Source: an uncultured Thermomicrobiaceae bacterium (GTDB lineage Bacteria > Chloroflexota > Chloroflexia > Thermomicrobiales > Thermomicrobiaceae). Taken from it: 64,000 nucleotides of DNA. Under the pieces are notes generated by a model. The model was not told the origin of the DNA. It did no database searches and saw only the letters and a program-made list of their open reading frames with translations. Location of the stretch: NCBI GenBank assembly GCA_938082375.1, contig CALKCJ010000002.1:1-64000 (forward strand), in the 5' to 3' direction. The translations under genes were made by a program, and so were the position numbers. Shown one piece after another: positions 14,552 to 24,332 of this stretch. Positions within the stretch are counted from its first letter, which is position 1. Each line of letters opens with the position of its first letter.

Positions 14552-15265
14552 ATGGCGACGGTTTTCCTGGTCGAAGACGACGAGAGCCTGAGCAACGCGG
14601 TGGCCTACAACCTCCGGCGGGCCGGCTACGACGTGGTCGCGCTCACCGACGGCGAGGCAGCGCTGCGGGCGCTCGCCGCCCAGCAGCCGGATCTGATCGT
14701 CTTGGACATCATGCTCCCCACCATCGACGGCTTCGAAGTCTGCCGCCAGGTGCGGCGCACCAGCTCCGTGCCCATCCTGGTGCTGACGGCTCGCGACGAC
14801 GAGGTCGACCGGGTCGTCGGGCTCGAGCTAGGCGCTGACGATTACCTCACCAAGCCGTTCTCGATGCGGGAGCTGCTGGCTCGGGTCAAGGCACTGTTGC
14901 GCCGGCGCGCGCTGTTGATCGAAGAGCTCCAGCGCGATCAGGCGAGGAGCTCCGAGCGGTTGGTGGTCGGCCCGGTGACCATCGATCTCGCGGCGCGGCG
15001 GGTCTGGCGCTCGGGTCAGGAAGTGGCGCTCAAGCCGAAGGAATACGAGCTGCTCGTTTACCTGGCTCGCCACCAGGGCCGCGTCTGCACCTCGGATGGT
15101 CTCCTGCGCGCGGTCTGGGGCTACGAGGGCTACGGGGAGACCCGAACGCTGGCCGTCCACATCCACGGGCTGCGCGAGAAGCTGGAAGACGATCCCCGGC
15201 ATCCCCGGCTGATCAAGACGGTGCGAGGGGTCGGGTATCGCCTCTCGCTGCAGGCGACCTCGTAA
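14552..15265 (+). CDS. OmpR/PhoB-family response regulator
   Basis: A 237-residue two-domain regulator. Receiver: acidic pair Glu8-Asp9-Asp10, phosphoacceptor Asp52 (LIVLDIMLP), Thr79 and Lys101 (YLTKPF). DNA-binding winged helix: LKPKEYELLVYLARHQ and TVRGVGYRL. Its immediate neighbour is a histidine kinase gene, 123 bp on, and the pst genes follow, so a PhoB/PhoP role in phosphate starvation is likely. A TAGAAT hexamer at 14512-14517 is a possible -10, with no good -35. A second, related regulator lies at 17733, so the roles of the two cannot be separated from sequence. Confidence 0.93.
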   Translation: MATVFLVEDDESLSNAVAYNLRRAGYDVVALTDGEAALRALAAQQPDLIVLDIMLPTIDGFEVCRQVRRTSSVPILVLTARDDEVDRVVGLELGADDYLTKPFSMRELLARVKALLRRRALLIEELQRDQARSSERLVVGPVTIDLAARRVWRSGQEVALKPKEYELLVYLARHQGRVCTSDGLLRAVWGYEGYGETRTLAVHIHGLREKLEDDPRHPRLIKTVRGVGYRLSLQATS

Positions 15266-15388: not shown

Positions 15389-16732
15389 GTGCCGTTGTCG
15401 GTTCTGCTCTCCGTTCTAATCCTGCTGGCCACGTTCTGGCTAGCGGCCGGAGACCTCCTGGCCGTGCTGCTTGCCGCCGCGCTGGGCGCGGCGGTGGCAG
15501 CGCTGGTTCTGCGCTGGCGGTATCGACGCCAGCTTGTGGGCCGGGTGCAGACGCTTCAGCGCCAGCTCGCCGCGCATCACGCCGAGGCGTGGGCACTGCG
15601 GGAACCGGTCTCGCTGCCGGATCCGCTGGACGGGCTGCGCACACAGCTCGACGAGGCGCTCCGAGCGTCCAGCGAGCAGCGCCGGCTGGCCGAGGCGGAG
15701 CGGGAGCAGCTCCACCGGATCCTCGAGCACCTGAGCGACGGGATCGTGATCATCGATGCCCAAGGCAAGGTCAAGCTCCTCAACCGAGCTGCCCAAGAGC
15801 TGCTGAGCACCGGACGTGGCCGAGCGATCGGTCGCTCGTACCCTGAGGTGCTTCGCGACTACGAGCTGGATGAGCTGGTCCGCACATCTGCCGCAGGGGC
15901 AACCAGCCCGCCGAGCCGTTTCGTCGAGCTGGGGCACCCGCGGCGGACGGTGCAGGCTCTGGCCTCCTCGCTGCCCGGCCCGAGTGGCCCGATGGTCACG
16001 CTGATCCTGCGCGACATCACCGAGCTGCGCCGTACCGAGGCGATCCGGCGCGACTTCATCGCCAACGTCTCGCACGACCTGAGGACGCCGCTGGCCGGGC
16101 TGCAAGCCCTCGTCGAGACGCTACTCGACGGCGCGCTCGAAGACCCGACGGTGGCCCGCGACTTCCTCAACCGGATCGCGACCGAGGTCGACCACCTGAC
16201 CCGGCTCGTCACGCAGCTTCTCGAGTTGACCCGCGCCGAAGCCGGCCAGCTCCACCTCCACCGGATGCCGACCGACCTGGCGGCGCTCATCGAACAGGTA
16301 CTGGCCCGCTTCGAGCCTCGCGCCCGTGCCAAGGGGCTGGAGCTGGAGCCTAGGCTGCCTTCCGCGCTCCCGCCTATCGTCTGCGATCCGGAGCGGATCG
16401 GCCAGGTGCTGTCCAATCTCCTCGACAACGCCATCAAGTTCACTCCGCCGGGTGGGCATATTACGGTAAGTCTGGAGGCAACCGAGAACGCCGTGCGCGT
16501 CGCCGTCAGCGACACCGGGCCGGGGATCCCGTCCGACGACCTGGATCGTATCTTCGAGCGCTTCTACAAGGCCGACCGCTCGCGCTCCGCCAGCGGCAGC
16601 GGGCTTGGGCTGGCGATCGTGAAGCACCTGATACAGCTCCACGGCGGTACCGTCTGGGCCGAGAGCCCTCCGCGCTCGGGGGCGACCATCGGCTTCACGT
16701 TGCCGTTGAATTTCACATCCGCTTCACAGTAG
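15389..16732 (+). CDS. phoR: Sensor histidine kinase, PhoR-like
   Basis: Membrane kinase of 447 residues. Two closely spaced hydrophobic helices (residues about 3-19 and 22-41) with almost no periplasmic loop resemble PhoR. A PAS domain (about 105-215, LSDGIVIIDAQGK), a HisKA domain with His229 in NVSHDLRTPL, and an HATPase domain with Asn347 (LSNLLDNAIKF), DTGPGI (375-380) and GSGLGLA (403-409) follow. It should phosphorylate the PhoB-like partner upstream. The GTG start at 15389 has GAGGTGA four bases before it. The 3' end contains two TTCACA repeats 11 bp apart. Confidence 0.92.
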   Translation: MPLSVLLSVLILLATFWLAAGDLLAVLLAAALGAAVAALVLRWRYRRQLVGRVQTLQRQLAAHHAEAWALREPVSLPDPLDGLRTQLDEALRASSEQRRLAEAEREQLHRILEHLSDGIVIIDAQGKVKLLNRAAQELLSTGRGRAIGRSYPEVLRDYELDELVRTSAAGATSPPSRFVELGHPRRTVQALASSLPGPSGPMVTLILRDITELRRTEAIRRDFIANVSHDLRTPLAGLQALVETLLDGALEDPTVARDFLNRIATEVDHLTRLVTQLLELTRAEAGQLHLHRMPTDLAALIEQVLARFEPRARAKGLELEPRLPSALPPIVCDPERIGQVLSNLLDNAIKFTPPGGHITVSLEATENAVRVAVSDTGPGIPSDDLDRIFERFYKADRSRSASGSGLGLAIVKHLIQLHGGTVWAESPPRSGATIGFTLPLNFTSASQ

Positions 16733-17095: not shown

Positions 17096-17194
17096 CAGGC
17101 GAAGTGATCAATCCGTGGAGTCTCCGTGGTTGACTTGGGATGCTCCCCATGAGGGGGCAGAGGCACGGGCGGCCGATGGGCCTGGGGCGTGCCG

Positions 17195-17590
17195 ATGACG
17201 CAACAACGAACCAGCACGAGATGGATCGGGCCGGTCATCCTCGTCGAGCAGGAATGGCCGGCCCGTGCCTACCTCAAGGCGCAGCTCGAGGAGGAGGGGC
17301 TGTGGGTGGTCGCCCTGCCCGCGCCGAGCGACGCTATCGCGTATTTGGAGCGCTGGGAGATTGTTCCCACGCTCTTCATCCTCGATTTGACCGGACAGCC
17401 TGCTGAGGAGCAGTCACGCTTCCTGGAACTGCTCCGCCGCCGGCCGGACGTTCCGGTCATCGTGCTGAAAAGCCCGATGCTCGCCGGGCAGCCCGACGTC
17501 GAAGCCCGGGCTGCCCGCGTGCTGGTCCGTCCCTTCAGCGTCGATGATGTGGTGCGCACCGTCGCCGAGGCGCTGGGCGGATGTCGGTGA
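17195..17590 (+). CDS. Stand-alone degenerate response-regulator receiver domain
   Basis: A 131-residue protein with the alternating strand/helix pattern of a receiver and nothing else. The phosphoacceptor position is kept (Asp64 in LFILDLTG), but the N-terminal acidic pair reads Glu18-Gln19-Glu20, the Thr/Ser switch position is Lys92 (VIVLKSP) and the invariant lysine is Arg112 (VLVRPF). Such pseudo-receivers usually act as phosphorylation-independent partners or are phosphorylated abnormally. It lies between phoR and the second PhoB-like gene, directly ahead of the PHO operator. Start at the ATG 17195; a GTG two codons earlier is also possible. Confidence 0.75.
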   Translation: MTQQRTSTRWIGPVILVEQEWPARAYLKAQLEEEGLWVVALPAPSDAIAYLERWEIVPTLFILDLTGQPAEEQSRFLELLRRRPDVPVIVLKSPMLAGQPDVEARAARVLVRPFSVDDVVRTVAEALGGCR

Positions 17591-17624
17591 GCTGGCAGCC
17601 ATCGGCAGGCGGCGCTCACCCTAC

Positions 17625-17663
17625 GTTAATCGTGCGTTAACTCCCCGCTCGCGTGCCGTTAAC
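17625..17663 (+). promoter_or_regulatory. PHO box: four 11-bp-spaced half-sites
   Basis: GTTAAT at 17625, GTTAAC at 17636 and GTTAAC at 17658 stand at multiples of exactly 11 bp; the slot at 17647 (GCTCGC) is degenerate. The arrangement, 6-bp direct repeats with 5-bp spacers, is that of PhoP/PhoB operators (TTAACA type in Bacillus). It lies just upstream of the second response regulator and the pst genes and 10 bp before a TACAGT -10-like hexamer (17674-17679), so it would overlap the -35 region as activator sites do. Confidence 0.75.
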
Positions 17664-17673
17664 CCTCCGACGG

Positions 17674-17679
17674 TACAGT
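17674..17679 (+). promoter_or_regulatory. Candidate -10 of the phoB2-pst operon
   Basis: TACAGT lies 10 bp after the last PHO half-site and 53 bp before the start of the second regulator gene. No -35 hexamer of its own is visible, as expected for a promoter that depends on an activator bound over that region. Confidence 0.45.
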
Positions 17680-17732
17680 GAGGAAGGACGGAAGGCGGGG
17701 CAAGCCCGGGCTTCGTCAAGGAGCAGGAATGG

Positions 17733-18521
17733 ATGGTCGGGCAGCGTGAAGGCAGAGCTCCTAGGTCTGGTTCGAGCGTCGAGCGGCGTCGGGTGCTCAT
17801 CGTCGAGGACGACGCGACCCTGGCAGAGTTGCTGCGCTACAACCTCGAGCGGCACGGCTACAGCGCCTGGATCGCTGCCGACGGCAAGCAGGCGATGATG
17901 CTGGCTCGCTCGGTGCGGCCCGACCTGGTGATCCTCGACCTGATGCTGCCCGGCATCGATGGCCGGGATGTCTGCCGGCTGATCCGCAAGTGGTCATCGG
18001 TGCCGATCCTGATCCTGACTGCCCGCGACAGCGAGGAGGATGTCGTCGCGGGGTTCGCTGTTGGGGCCGACGACTACCTGACCAAGCCGTTCCGCGTCCG
18101 CGAGCTAATGGCCCGGGTCGAGGCGCTGTTGCGGCGGGCCGCAGCCACAAGCGAGGAGCCGCGGGTCTTGACCGTTGGCAAGTTGGCGATCTTTCTCGAC
18201 GAGCACCGGGTGCTCTTTCATGACCGCGAGGTCCACCTTCCGCCTAAAGAGTTCACGCTGCTGGCAGCGCTCGTCAAGCGAGCTGGCCAGGCCTGCACCC
18301 GTGCCGAGCTCCTCGACCTAGTGTGGGGCCGCGAGGTGATCGTGGATCCCCGAAATATCGATGTGCATATCCGGCGGATTCGCGCTGCGCTGGAAGGAGA
18401 GCCCGATGGGTCGCACCTAATCCAGACTGTGCACGGCGTTGGCTACCGGTTTGTACCGGACGTGAACGAGTGGTTGATGCCTGAGACGGGAGGAGGACAG
18501 TACGGTGGAGAAGTGGCGTGA
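17733..18521 (+). CDS. phoB: Second OmpR/PhoB-family response regulator (phosphate operon)
   Basis: A 262-residue regulator. After a 19-residue N-terminal tail comes a complete receiver: VEDD acidic cluster, phosphoacceptor in [10 protein letters not shown], the threonine in LILTARD and lysine in YLTKPF. The C-terminal winged helix has [18 protein letters not shown] and HGVGYRF. AAGGAG lies eight bases before the chosen ATG. It overlaps pstS by 17 bases and is preceded by the 11-bp PHO repeats, so it is probably autoregulated and drives the pst genes. Only one histidine kinase gene is visible, so it may share PhoR with the upstream regulator. Confidence 0.92.
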
Positions 18522-19647
18522 TCCTCAAGCCTTTCGCTTGTTAGCGGCCGAGCCTCTCAGCCGCCGAGCGTTACTCCGGCGCGCAGCGGTCACCGGGCTC
18601 TCGGTTCCGATGGTCGCGGCGCTGCTGGCAGCCTGCCGGCAGGCGGAGGCAACCCCCACACCGGCGGTGGGCGGCGCCGCACCCAGCCCGACCGCCCCAG
18701 CGGCGACGCCGACTACTGCGGCCGAGCAGCTTTCTGGCCTGATCACCATCGACGGATCGAGCACGGTCTTCCCGATCAGCGAGGCCGTGGCTGAGGAGTT
18801 CCAGAAGCAGTACCCGGGAGTGAAGGTCACGGTCGGCATCTCGGGAACCGGCGGTGGTTTCAAGAAGTTCTGTAACAAGGAGACCGATATCAGTGACGCC
18901 TCGCGGCCGATCAAGGATTCGGAGCTCCAGACCTGCCAGCAAAACGGTGTCGAGTTTATCGAGTTGCCGGTCGCGTTTGATGGGCTCGCGGTCGTCGTCA
19001 ACCCGCAGAACGACTGGGTCGACCAGCTCACCGTCGAGGAGCTGAAGAAGATATGGGCGCCCGAGGCGCAGGGAGTCATTACCCGTTGGAACCAGATCCG
19101 GCCGGAGTGGCCAGACGCGCCGCTGAACCTCTACGGCGCGGGCACGGACTCCGGCACCTTCGACTACTTCACGGAGGCGATCGTGGGCAAGAGTGGGGCC
19201 AGTCGCGGGGACTACACCGCGTCCGAGGACGACAACGTCCTGGTTCAGGGCGTGGCCGGCGACGTGAACGCGCTCGGTTACTTCGGCCTGGCCTACGCCG
19301 TCGAGAACGAGGGCCGGGTCAAGCTTGTGCCGATCGTGAACCCAAAGACCGGTGAAGCGGTCATCCCCAGCCTAGAGACGGTGAACAAGGGGCAGTACGT
19401 CCCGCTCTCCCGGCCGATCTTCATCTATGTCGCGCTGACAGCGGCGGAACGGCCGGAGGTCGACGCCTTCGTGCGATTCTACCTCGAGCACGCGGCAGAG
19501 CTCTCCGCCGAGGTGGGCTACGTCCCGTTGCCGGACGAGGCGTACCGGCTTGGCGCGGAGCGGTTCGACCAGCGCAAGACCGGTTCGGTGTTCCAGGGAG
19601 TAGAAGTCGGTGTGTCGATCGAGGATATCCTGCGTCGCGAGCAGTAG
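18505..19647 (+). CDS. pstS: Phosphate-binding lipoprotein PstS
   Basis: Exported phosphate receptor of 380 residues. A twin-arginine-like signal ([14 protein letters not shown]) leads to a lipobox LLAAC at about residue 36, then a Pro/Thr-rich linker, then the binding domain with [18 protein letters not shown], the phosphate-contact [13 protein letters not shown] and [15 protein letters not shown]. The GTG start has GGGAGGAGG eight bases upstream and lies inside the end of the preceding regulator gene. Delivers phosphate to PstCAB encoded immediately downstream. Confidence 0.95.
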
Positions 19648-19729
19648 CGCGGGGTGAGCCACCTCCAGCAGGTAGCTATGCGGCGCGCGTCTGGATGAGT
19701 AGAATCGGCCGTCAGGAGGGGTGCCGGCA

Positions 19730-20728
19730 TTGGCGATGGACAGCGCTCCAGAAGCAGCGTACACATCCACAACCGCCCATCTGGCAGCGGTCGCCGAGCG
19801 ACAAGAGCGCATCCGGCGCACGCTCGAGGGTGGGCTGGCGCAGGATCGCCGTCGCCGCGTCCGCGAGGGCGTCATTACCAGTAGCCTTTTCCTGGCGGCC
19901 GCAATCTCCGTCCTGACCACCGCCGGGATCATCTACACCCTGGGCATCGAGACGTTTCACTTCTTCCAGCGGGTCTCGATCGTCGACTTCTTGACTGATA
20001 CCCAGTGGACACCGCTGTTCACCGAGAAGCATTTCGGGATTGCGCCACTCGCGGTCGCCACGCTCCTGGTCTCGTCGATCGCGATGCTCGTCTCGCTGCC
20101 CCTCGGGCTACTGGCAGCCATCGGCCTGGCCGAGTACCTGCCACTTCGCCTGGCGCGCGTGATCAAGCCGATCCTCGAGATCCTTGCCGGCGTGCCGACC
20201 GTCGTCTACGGCTATTTCGCGCTGCTCTTCGTGACGCCGCTCCTCCAGCGCTTCATCCCCAACCTGCAGGTCTTCAACGCGCTCTCGGCCGGCTTGGTGA
20301 TGGGGATCATGATCCTGCCGCTGGTGGCCTCGCTCTCGCAGGACGCAATGCTGGCTGTGCCGCAGTCGCTGCGTGAAGCTGCCTACGCGCTGGGTGCGAC
20401 CAAGCTCGAGGTTGTGTGGCGAGTAATCCTGCCAGCCTCGCTCTCGGGCATCGTCGCTTCGTTCATCCTGGCGGTCTCGCGGGCAGTGGGCGAGACGATG
20501 ATCGTCGTGATCGCGATGGGCAACACCCCGCGCCTCTCGTTCAACCCGCTGGAGCAGATGCAGGCGATGACCGCCTACATCGTCCAGGTGAGCCTGGGTG
20601 ACACGCCGCACGGCACGCTCGAGTATCAGACGATCTTCGCCGTCGGCGCGACACTGTTCCTGATCACGATGGTGCTGAACCTGCTGAGCTTCCGCCTGCT
20701 GCGGCGTTTCCGGGAGATCTACCAGTGA
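19730..20728 (+). CDS. pstC: Phosphate ABC-transporter permease PstC
   Basis: Inner-membrane permease of about 332 residues with six predicted helices after a 60-residue cytoplasmic N-terminus. The EAA loop for ATPase contact reads [20 protein letters not shown], and [12 protein letters not shown] is a PstC/PstA hallmark. Start choice is uncertain: AGGAGGGG at 19715-19721 is eight bases from the TTG at 19730, which I prefer, and 14 from the ATG at 19736; GTG at 19721 overlaps the motif. It forms the channel with PstA. Confidence 0.92.
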
Positions 20729-21630
20729 CGGGTACGCAGCTCAGAACGACCGTGGGGACTGACACCGAATTCCAGCCCCGGCTGCCTCTCCGACGGAAGG
20801 TGGGTGCCGTCTTCGGGGCCTTGACGGTCGTGGCGATGGCGATCGGGCTGCTGACCCTTGCGGCGCTGATCGTCGACGTGGTGCGCGACGGCTGGACGGT
20901 GCTCTCCTGGGACTTCATCCGGAGCTTCCCCTCGCGGCGGCCGAGCGAAGCTGGCATTCGCTCGGCGCTGATCGGCACGGTCTATATCATGGTGCTGGTC
21001 GCGATCATCGCGTTTCCGCTGGGGGTGTCGGCCGCAGTCTACCTGGAAGAATTCGCCCCCAAGAACCGGCTGACGAGCTTCATCGAGCTGAACATCTCGA
21101 ACTTGGCGGCGGTGCCGTCGATCGTCTACGGACTGCTCGGCCTCGGGATCTTCGTGCGCGCGTTGACGCTCGGGCCGAGCCTGATCGCCGGGGCCTTGAC
21201 GCTGATCCTGCTGATCCTGCCGATCATCATTATCGCCGGTCGGGAGGCACTGCGGGCCGTGCCGCCCTCGATCCGCGAGGCCGGCTATGCGTTGGGCGCG
21301 TCGCGCTGGCAGACGGTGCGGATGTTTGTCTTGCCGGTCGCCATGCCCGGTATTCTGACTGGAACCATCTTGGCGCTTTCACGGGCGATCGGAGAGACCG
21401 CCCCGTTGATCACGATCGGCGCGCTCACCTACATTGCCTTCACCCCGAAGAGCCTGCTCGATCCCTTCACCGTGTTGCCGATCCAGATCTATAACTGGGT
21501 GTCGCGCCCTCAGCCAGCCTTCCACCAGCTCGCGGCCGGTGGCATCATCATCCTGCTCGCGATGCTGCTGACCTTCAACGGGCTGGCGATCGTGCTGCGG
21601 GCGCGCTTGCAGCGCCAGATCCGAGACTGA
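20725..21630 (+). CDS. pstA: Phosphate ABC-transporter permease PstA
   Basis: Inner-membrane permease of 301 residues with six predicted helices. It has [14 protein letters not shown], matching the PstA signature, and the EAA loop [20 protein letters not shown]. Its GTG start overlaps the pstC stop (GTGA), showing translational coupling. Confidence 0.94.
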
Positions 21631-21642
21631 GAGGGGAAGAGC

Positions 21643-22452
21643 ATGACCGCGCCGACTACCGAGCACCGCCACATCGTCGTTCCCCCGGGCTCAGTCGCGT
21701 TGCGCATCGAGAACCTCTCAGTCTGGTACGCCGCATATCAAGCCATCCGCGACATCTCGATGGTTATTCCAGAGCGGAGTATCACCGCCATCATCGGCCC
21801 CTCGGGCTGCGGCAAAAGCACGCTGCTGCGTGCGCTCAACCGGCTGCACGACACGACACCCGGTGCGCGGGTGGAGGGGCATGTCTGGCGGAACGGGGTC
21901 GACCTTTACGCACCGACGACCGACCCGGTCTGGGTCCGCCGACACATCGGAATGATCTTCCAGCGACCGAACCCGTTTCCCAAGTCGATCTTCGAGAACG
22001 TCGCCTTCGGCCTGCGGGTCAACGGCTACCGGGGCACCGTGGTCGAGCGGGTAGAGCAGGCGTTGCGGGCGGCTGCGCTGTGGGACGAGGTGAAGGACAA
22101 GCTGCACACCAGCGCGCTGGCCCTGTCCGGCGGCCAGCAGCAGCGCTTGTGCATCGCGCGGGCGCTGGCAGTCAAGCCGGAGATCCTACTCATGGACGAG
22201 CCATGCTCAGCGCTCGATCCAGTGGCGACCATGCGGATCGAAGACTTGATGCGCGAGCTGGCGAAGTCGTATACCATCGTCATCGTGACGCACAACATGC
22301 AGCAGGCCTCCCGAGTCTCGGACTACACAGCGTTTATGCTAGCCGGTGAGGATCGGATCGGTGAGCTTATCGAGTACGCGCCGACGCGGGAAATCTTCCT
22401 GCGCCCGCGTGACCGGCGGACTGAGGACTACATTACCGGGCGGATCGGATAG
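21643..22452 (+). CDS. pstB: Phosphate ABC-transporter ATPase PstB (first copy)
   Basis: Cytosolic ATPase of 269 residues. Walker [10 protein letters not shown], signature [15 protein letters not shown], Walker B ILLMDEP and the switch histidine in VTHNMQQA are all present. The segment after Walker B reads DEPCSALDP, with Cys where most PstB have Thr. It energises PstCA. A second pstB follows after 105 bp. Confidence 0.94.
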
Positions 22453-22557
22453 CAGCGAGCACGGCCGCGTGCCGCTGTCACCGGCCGAGTGGGTCTCGCT
22501 GGATGTCGCAGTGAGCCGCCGGAGCCTGATCCTTAGCCATGGCAAGGAGCACGGCTG

Positions 22558-23406
22558 ATGAGTGAGCCCCTGGTCTCCGTGACCGTCCGCCAGCGGGAGC
22601 CAGCGCAGAGGCTCGCTGAGCGCGAGGCCGTGGCAGCGAGTATGACCGTTGAGCGCCTCAGCGCGTTCTACGGGAAATTCCAAGCGCTGGCAGATCTCAC
22701 GTTCCCGATCCATCCCGCGGCGGTCACCGCGGTCATCGGGCCGTCAGGCTGCGGCAAGTCCACCTTTATCCGCTGCCTCAACCGCCTGCACGAGCTGACG
22801 CCCGGTGCCCGCGTCAGCGGCCGAGTCCTGCTCGACGGCGTGGATATCTACGATCCCGCCATCGACCCGGCCCGGGTACGCCAGTTGATCGGGATGGTCT
22901 TCCAGAAGCCGAACCCGTTCCCGCACCTCTCCGTCTACGACAACGTGCTCGCCGGCATCCGGCTGCACCGCTCGCGCATCCCCAAACCCCAGGCCGACGA
23001 AATCGTGGAGCGCAGCCTGCGGGCCGCAGTGCTGTGGGACGAGGTCAAAGACAAGCTAGGCGCTCCTGGCTCGTCACTCTCCGGCGGCCAGCAGCAGCGC
23101 CTGTGCATCGCGCGGGCGCTGGCCATCGAGCCGGAGGTGCTGCTGATGGACGAGCCGACCAGCGCGCTCGACCCTATCGCGACCTACCACATCGAGGAGC
23201 TGATCGCCGAGCTGAAGCAGCGCTACACCATCGTCATCGTCACGCACAACATGCAGCAGGCCGCCCGGGTCGCCGACTACGTCGCGTTCTTCCTGGGCGG
23301 CGAGGAGCGAACCGGGCGCCTGATCGAGTTCGACACGGCGGAGCAGATCTTCACCAATCCCAAGCGACGGGAGACCGAGGAGTACATCACCGGCAAGATT
23401 GGGTGA
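22558..23406 (+). CDS. pstB: Phosphate ABC-transporter ATPase PstB (second copy)
   Basis: A 282-residue paralogue of the preceding gene with an additional 20-residue N-terminal tail. Walker [11 protein letters not shown], signature [15 protein letters not shown], Walker [14 protein letters not shown] and [13 protein letters not shown] are intact, so both copies should be active. The two differ most in the helical domain ([16 protein letters not shown] here against [15 protein letters not shown]). Whether they form a heterodimer or alternate is not known. Confidence 0.94.
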
Positions 23407-23465: not shown

Positions 23466-23636
23466 GGGGCAAACCGCGCGGCCTCAGACGGATATGGCCA
23501 GCTCGCGGGGCGACGCGAGGCGGCCCGGCAAGTTTTCTGGCCGTGGTCACGCACCCTCGCGAGCGCCAGCGAATGCAGCAGGGCAGAGAGCCAATGCAGC
23601 CAGGATGAGCACGACTCTAGGCAAGGCAGGTGTGTG

Positions 23637-24332
23637 ATGGGTACGGCAATCCGCACGCGAGCCGAGTTTGAGCGCGAGCTGCAGTCGCTGCGTGAGGAGG
23701 TGCTCAACCTCGGCAGCATGGTCGAGAAGGCAGTTCAACGAGCGGTCCAGGCGCTCAAGCACCGGGATGTCGAGCTGGCACGGCAGGTGATCGAGAGCGA
23801 CCAGGAGATCGACGAGCGCACCTATGCGCTGGAGGAGAAGGCGCTCCTCCTCATCGCCACCCAGCAGCCGCTGGCCACCGACCTCCGGATCATCGCGGCA
23901 ACGCTGTTCATTATCAGCGAGCTGGAGCGAATCGGCGACTACGCCGAGGGCATCGCCACGATCGCGCAGCGGCTCGCCGATCGGCCGCCGCTCAAGCCGC
24001 TGATCGATATCCCGCGGATGGCCGAGGTTTCGACCGAGATGTTGCGGGGCAGTCTCGACGCGTTCATCGACCGCGACCTGGAGGCGTGCCGCGCGATCTG
24101 GCGGCGCGACGACGAGGTGGACGCGCTCTACGACCAGGTGTACCGAGAGCTCCTGACCTACATGATCAGTGACCCCTCGACGATCGAGCGAGCCACGTTG
24201 CTTCTCTGGACAGCCCATAACCTGGAGCGGATCGCCGACCGGGTCACCAATATCTGCGAGCGGATCGCCTTCGTGATTACCGGCGACCCACGCGCGCTCC
24301 CGGGCGAAGTCGAACCCGACTACCCGAAGTAA
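23637..24332 (+). CDS. phoU: Phosphate transport regulator PhoU
   Basis: All-helical protein of 231 residues made of two three-helix PhoU repeats. The metal-binding (E/D)xxxD motifs are seen in ELERIGDYAEGIA and NLERIADRVTNICER. It represses the Pho response when phosphate is ample by linking PstB with PhoR. The ATG at 23637 starts the conserved region; the open frame extends far upstream without homology. Confidence 0.94.
   Translation: MGTAIRTRAEFERELQSLREEVLNLGSMVEKAVQRAVQALKHRDVELARQVIESDQEIDERTYALEEKALLLIATQQPLATDLRIIAATLFIISELERIGDYAEGIATIAQRLADRPPLKPLIDIPRMAEVSTEMLRGSLDAFIDRDLEACRAIWRRDDEVDALYDQVYRELLTYMISDPSTIERATLLLWTAHNLERIADRVTNICERIAFVITGDPRALPGEVEPDYPK

Follow-up and report, generated by a model that had tools for sequence, protein, structure and literature searches.

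A probable PHO operator of tandem 11-bp units in front of the response regulator-pstSCABB-phoU operon of a Thermomicrobiaceae genome

The window (the whole stretch of 64,000 nucleotides that was analysed) contains pst genes, two OmpR-family response regulator genes and a sensor kinase gene. A short tandem array is found in the gap between a receiver-like gene (17189-17590) and the RR2-pstSCABB-phoU operon. The features are as follows:

14552-15265, + strand: RR1, a second OmpR-family response regulator, YycF/MtrA/PhoB-like (rival candidate binder)
15389-16732, + strand: sensor histidine kinase of PnpS/PhoR-like type with PAS, HisKA and HATPase domains, probably acting in phosphate signalling
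17614-17619, + strand: GCTCAC, probable outermost unit, weak, in the 11-bp register
17625-17630, + strand: PHO-box unit GTTAAT, in exact 11-bp register
17636-17641, + strand: PHO-box unit GTTAAC, the slot with the highest conservation among relatives
17647-17652, + strand: degenerate slot GCTCGC
17658-17663, + strand: promoter-proximal PHO-box unit GTTAAC, with 10 bp between its end and the -10
17674-17679, + strand: -10 element TACAGT (TANNNT), with no -35 partner
17733-18521, + strand: RR2, a PhoB/MtrA/RegX3-type OmpR-family response regulator, first gene of the controlled operon
18505-19647, + strand: pstS, phosphate-binding protein (TIGR02136, above cut-off)
19721-20728, + strand: pstC (TIGR02138, above cut-off)
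20725-21630, + strand: pstA (TIGR00974, above cut-off)
21643-22452, + strand: pstB, copy 1 (TIGR00972, above cut-off)
22558-23406, + strand: pstB, copy 2 (TIGR00972, above cut-off)
23634-24332, + strand: phoU (TIGR02135, above cut-off)

RR2 scores 233.5 bits against the PhoB model TIGR02154, below the curated cut-off of 296.2, and is therefore called PhoB-type and not PhoB, its name resting on context. Its recognition region is alike in all orthologues and is of the PhoB/MtrA/RegX3 type. The two pstB genes (21643-23406) follow each other in one operon, an arrangement retained in several relatives.

The gene at 17189-17590, between the kinase gene and the array, encodes a degenerate receiver-like protein of 133 amino acids, for which no Pfam match was found. 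The phospho-acceptor Asp is retained and the conserved Lys is replaced by Arg. The protein is kept in genera g1 and g6 with 39-87% identity, and examination of g3, g4 and f2 loci revealed no homologue. In three g6 genomes, L177 (G011), L180 (G016) and L187 (G018), the first units of the PHO box overlap the last codons and the stop codon of the receiver gene (TAA of GTTAA).

The initial annotation had placed GTTAAT, GTTAAC, a degenerate slot and GTTAAC at 17625, 17636, 17647 and 17658, and both the coordinates and the 11-bp period are exact. Its description of TACAGT as a -10 element without a -35 also holds: TACAGT stands at 17674, and no -35/-10 pair of sigma-70 type spaced by 16-18 bp was found in 17180-18000. 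By sequence, the array has the placement expected of a PHO box, about 10 bp before a TAN3T -10 whose -35 it would replace. Within 300 bp upstream of the RR2 gene, the best four-slot array scores 22/24 at a spacing of 11 bp, against 13-15 at spacings of 7-10 and 12-15 bp, and the score of 22/24 was equalled in none of 500 shuffles. The units are not all equal, since the slot at 17647 is degenerate. GCTCAC at 17614-17619 matches GTTMAY in 5 of 6 positions, and the equivalent slot reads GTTCAC in one relative (G003) and GTTCCC in another (G001). Because GCTCAC is in register, the array at 17614-17663 is probably five units long, comprising three strong units, one weak slot and one probable outer unit; PHO boxes have at least two units (E. 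coli) or at least three (cyanobacteria), a number that is reached here.

For comparison among relatives, the 300 bp upstream of RR2 orthologues were scored for four GTT[AC]A[CT] slots at 17 loci, the window included. (A search of the genome contigs with RR2 returned distant OmpR regulators only, useless for promoter comparison.) The array is conserved at these orthologous promoters, upstream of the regulator gene, in 15 of the 17 loci; there no more than one of 500 shuffles equalled the score at spacing 11 (P 0.002-0.004), with lower scores at spacings 7-10 and 12-15. Spacing 11, the period of the direct repeat units of PHO boxes (7 conserved and 4 variable positions), is thus the best-scoring one in the window and in 15/17 orthologous loci, the other two (G028 and G025) showing weak, non-significant arrays only. 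The arrays were located without the use of the -10 element. Nevertheless, each of the 15 significant arrays has an in-register TANNNT that starts 10 bp past its last hexamer (directly behind the four scored slots in nine, one or two units further in six). When 14 sites are aligned without gaps, the -10 has the same T, A and T in every one, and the T and A positions at the core of the units show little or no variation.

The hexamers vary between lineages. The slots carry GTTAAY in genus g1 (three species), GTTCAT/GTTCAA and GTTAAG/GTTAAA in g6, GATAAM, GATCAC and CTTCAY in g4, GCTAAT and GTTGAT in g3, and CTTAAC and CTTCAC in family f2; GATAAC is among the forms found in relatives. The slot corresponding to 17647 is degenerate also in g1 and g6 (GCGAAY, GCGAAA, GGGAAT, GCTCGC), while in g4 it is a proper unit, GATCAC. 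For 21 order-level pstS loci from other families, scoring of the upstream DNA with the simple consensus gave no significant result, although in-register arrays accompanied by TANNNT do occur at two of them, G032 and G022.

A sequence-only profile (R1) was built from the 14 sites and run over 61 genomes. The training sites were picked by orthology to RR2, so the array inevitably stands beside RR2 in that set, and the held-out matches are for that reason the fair test. The genes downstream of these matches were classified after the matches were seen; pstS was called by tblastn, NCBIfam (G027) or Pfam PBP_like_2 (G017), and PhoX by Pfam. At E≤0.5 there are 21 held-out matches; at 10 of these the gene immediately following is pstS or encodes a PhoB-like regulator (G004, G009, G012, G017, G027:C43, G033, G036, G038, G049 and G052). 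In G004, G009 and G012 the array stands before pstS and behind the kinase gene, not before the regulator gene. Other phosphate-scavenging genes follow at three of the 21: phoX, with a gene for a small secreted protein in front of it (G023:C288), a secreted Exo_endo_phos/SLH nuclease of the endonuclease/exonuclease/phosphatase type (G023:C163), and a UgpA-like permease that scores below its curated cut-off (G027:C73). Two more precede near-identical glycosyltransferase genes (G027:C100), one a solute-binding protein (G048) and one a different response regulator (G034:C92), and the last four look unrelated (G059, G014:C23, G052:C409, G034:C105). Arrays stand before phosphate-starvation genes in the window, as identified by family models, and at held-out places in relatives.

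Two side observations concern arrays in other genomes. In G027:C100 (L220) the near-identical arrays at 147734 and 155134 precede two near-identical GT4 glycosyltransferase genes, which may serve to make glycolipids when phosphate is limiting. Family f4 has two genomes (L167:1501-1720 and L168:1501-1730) in which a perfect array with TAGACT is followed by ~150-170 nt with no evident gene and a G+C-rich hairpin, making a phosphate-controlled small RNA a candidate product. The two candidate transcripts are only weakly alike, and no Rfam match was found for either.

Within its own genome the site stands alone. GTTAAY-N5-GTTAAY matches exactly once in the 3.36-Mb genome (reversed control pattern, 0), where 0.08 pairs would be expected from the base composition; for three units in phase the expectation is about 1e-5. 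A three-unit TTMAY pattern with TANNNT at the observed distance also finds the window site as its sole match in the genome, and its control has 0 matches in the 61 genomes. With two mismatches allowed, the pair pattern gives 50 matches genome-wide against 35 for the reversed control; given this small excess, the near-exact site alone is informative. Profile R1, run over the own genome and two congeners up to E≤10, returned the known site only, besides one overlapping fragment. The initial annotation had proposed searching for GTTAAY-N5-GTTAAY pairs near phosphatase genes; the search recovers the window site and no pair near such genes, and as family searches detected no PhoA, PhoD or PhoX in the genome, this check has nothing to act on here. 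Of the two outcomes that it had named as counting against a PHO box, lack of conservation upstream of pst in related species is not what is seen (the array is conserved upstream of pst/phoB), while the motif is indeed absent elsewhere in the own genome. The sole detectable array and the failure to detect PhoA, PhoD and PhoX families suggest a minimal, autoregulated phoB-pst regulon. A broader reading, in which the operator is the genome's sole Pho site in a self-amplifying regulon of one operon and the degenerate receiver at 17189-17590 is an added phosphate-signalling component (e.g., a phosphate sink or an RR2 antagonist), is speculative and rather improbable. A second PstS-like match in the same genome, L227 (G000:C18:58349-58999), contains an in-frame TGA and may be a pseudogene or a frameshift.

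The repeated GTTAAY units are very probably a genuine PHO box before a phosphate-uptake operon. We consider it highly likely that 17614-17679 serves as PHO operator/promoter for a response regulator-pstSCABB-phoU operon under autoregulation, with PhoB-type activation at low phosphate. In such a mechanism, the PnpS/PhoR-like kinase would phosphorylate a PhoB-type response regulator when phosphate is low, most likely RR2, encoded just downstream of the array. The phosphorylated regulator would occupy the tandem 11-bp units in head-to-tail order, along one face of the DNA, and would there replace the missing -35 and recruit sigma-70 RNA polymerase to TACAGT. As RR2 is the first gene of the operon, the operon would be autoregulated. 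Phosphorylation-dependent binding, activation and the choice of binder are all taken from the E. coli PhoB model and are proposed here by analogy.

The identity of the binder leaves the most room for another explanation. OmpR-family regulators commonly recognise direct repeats of about 11 bp, and a genuine PHO operator of this period could be bound by RR1, with RR2 as a downstream target that relays the signal or serves another pathway. The RR1 gene adjoins the kinase gene, and the best family of this kinase is PnpS, described as the kinase of pneumococcal PnpRS, whose genes adjoin pst1 (PMC4913102). Against this stand the loci examined in g6, g4 and f2: neither RR1 nor the kinase can be recognised there beside pst, and RR2 lies directly behind the array (partly by selection). 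The recognition regions also differ, with HIHGLRE in RR1 and HIRRIRA in RR2. We regard binding by RR1 as unlikely, though worth keeping in mind, and RR2 is preferred as the predicted binder on two grounds: it still adjoins the array at loci where no RR1 or kinase gene was detected in the vicinity, and the orthologues are alike in their recognition region.

The other alternatives carry far less weight. An operator of another OmpR-family regulator, of the cell-envelope WalR/MtrA type, standing before pst by coincidence would fit the high scores of both RR1 and RR2 against YycF and MtrA models and the use of direct repeats by such regulators, but it is very improbable given that held-out R1 matches fall mainly at phosphate genes, phoX and the secreted nuclease in another family among them. 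Chance clustering of AT-rich hexamers, for which nothing speaks except that promoter DNA is generally A+T-rich, is contradicted by the arrays of fixed spacing conserved in relatives and by the pair frequency (1 observed, 0.08 expected, in the genome), and its probability is close to nil. The initial annotation had also suggested a PHO box with a new, lineage-specific core. The three species of genus g1 do carry GTTAAY in the same slots; however, the identical core has been published for cyanobacterial Pho boxes (PMC1906773), so it is not new, and it varies inside the same family and order. A core of this kind should be absent from described PHO boxes and uniform in its lineage, and GTTAAY is neither; this suggestion is dropped as hardly tenable.

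What stands of the earlier reading is the PHO operator with PhoB/PhoP-type 11-bp spacing before pst, borne out by the spacing, the conservation and the held-out matches at phosphate genes. By every feature that can be tested on the sequence the site is a PHO operator, a well-supported but ordinary new example. For an order with no described Pho operator found in the literature searched, it adds a PHO-box architecture, well backed by comparison, of 11-bp units set 10 bp from TANNNT; searches for a Pho box in Chloroflexi or Thermomicrobium returned nothing relevant. Profile R1 can be used to predict phosphate regulons in this bacterial order. The TTAAC-type core is common to cyanobacteria and this lineage and is not special to the latter. 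Modestly unusual are the apparent status of the array as the sole operator of its genome and the conserved degenerate receiver gene in front of it.

The comparison with known PHO boxes places the array among established forms. The PhoP box of Bacillus subtilis has a TTAACA-type consensus, and the window array shares with it the TTAAC core and the 11-bp spacing. In Streptomyces, the PHO box is likewise defined by tandem 11-nt units, in the form GTTCACC (PMC4415409), which differs by one base from GTTAACC: position 4 is A in the window genome and C in Streptomyces, and GTTCAT/GTTCAA occupy the same slots in relatives of the window genome. GTTAAY had been set apart from both the Bacillus and the Streptomyces forms, a distinction that is not supported, as it contains the TTAAC of the one and is a single base from the other. 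The E. coli PhoB sites, 10 bp upstream of TAN3T/A (PMC1906773), are similar in the tandem 11-bp direct repeats, in the distance to the -10 and in the location before pst and phoB; they differ in the core, CTGTCAT there and GTTAAY here, and in the window genome the pst operon begins with the regulator gene. Closest in sequence is the cyanobacterial SphR Pho box, with consensus CTTAACCT, a 3-bp linker and at least three tandem units (PMC1906773). Both are tandem direct repeats of 8+3=11 bp with at least three units and a TTAAC core, and GTTAAT-N5-GTTAAC occurs verbatim in the predicted Pho box of Anabaena Ava_2541 phoA, printed as GTTAATCTtcaGTTAACCT (PMC1906773). In contrast to the cyanobacterial box, the distance from the array to the start of TANNNT is fixed at 10 bp here, and the operator precedes the regulator gene itself, a placement that is uncommon in cyanobacteria (PMC1906773).
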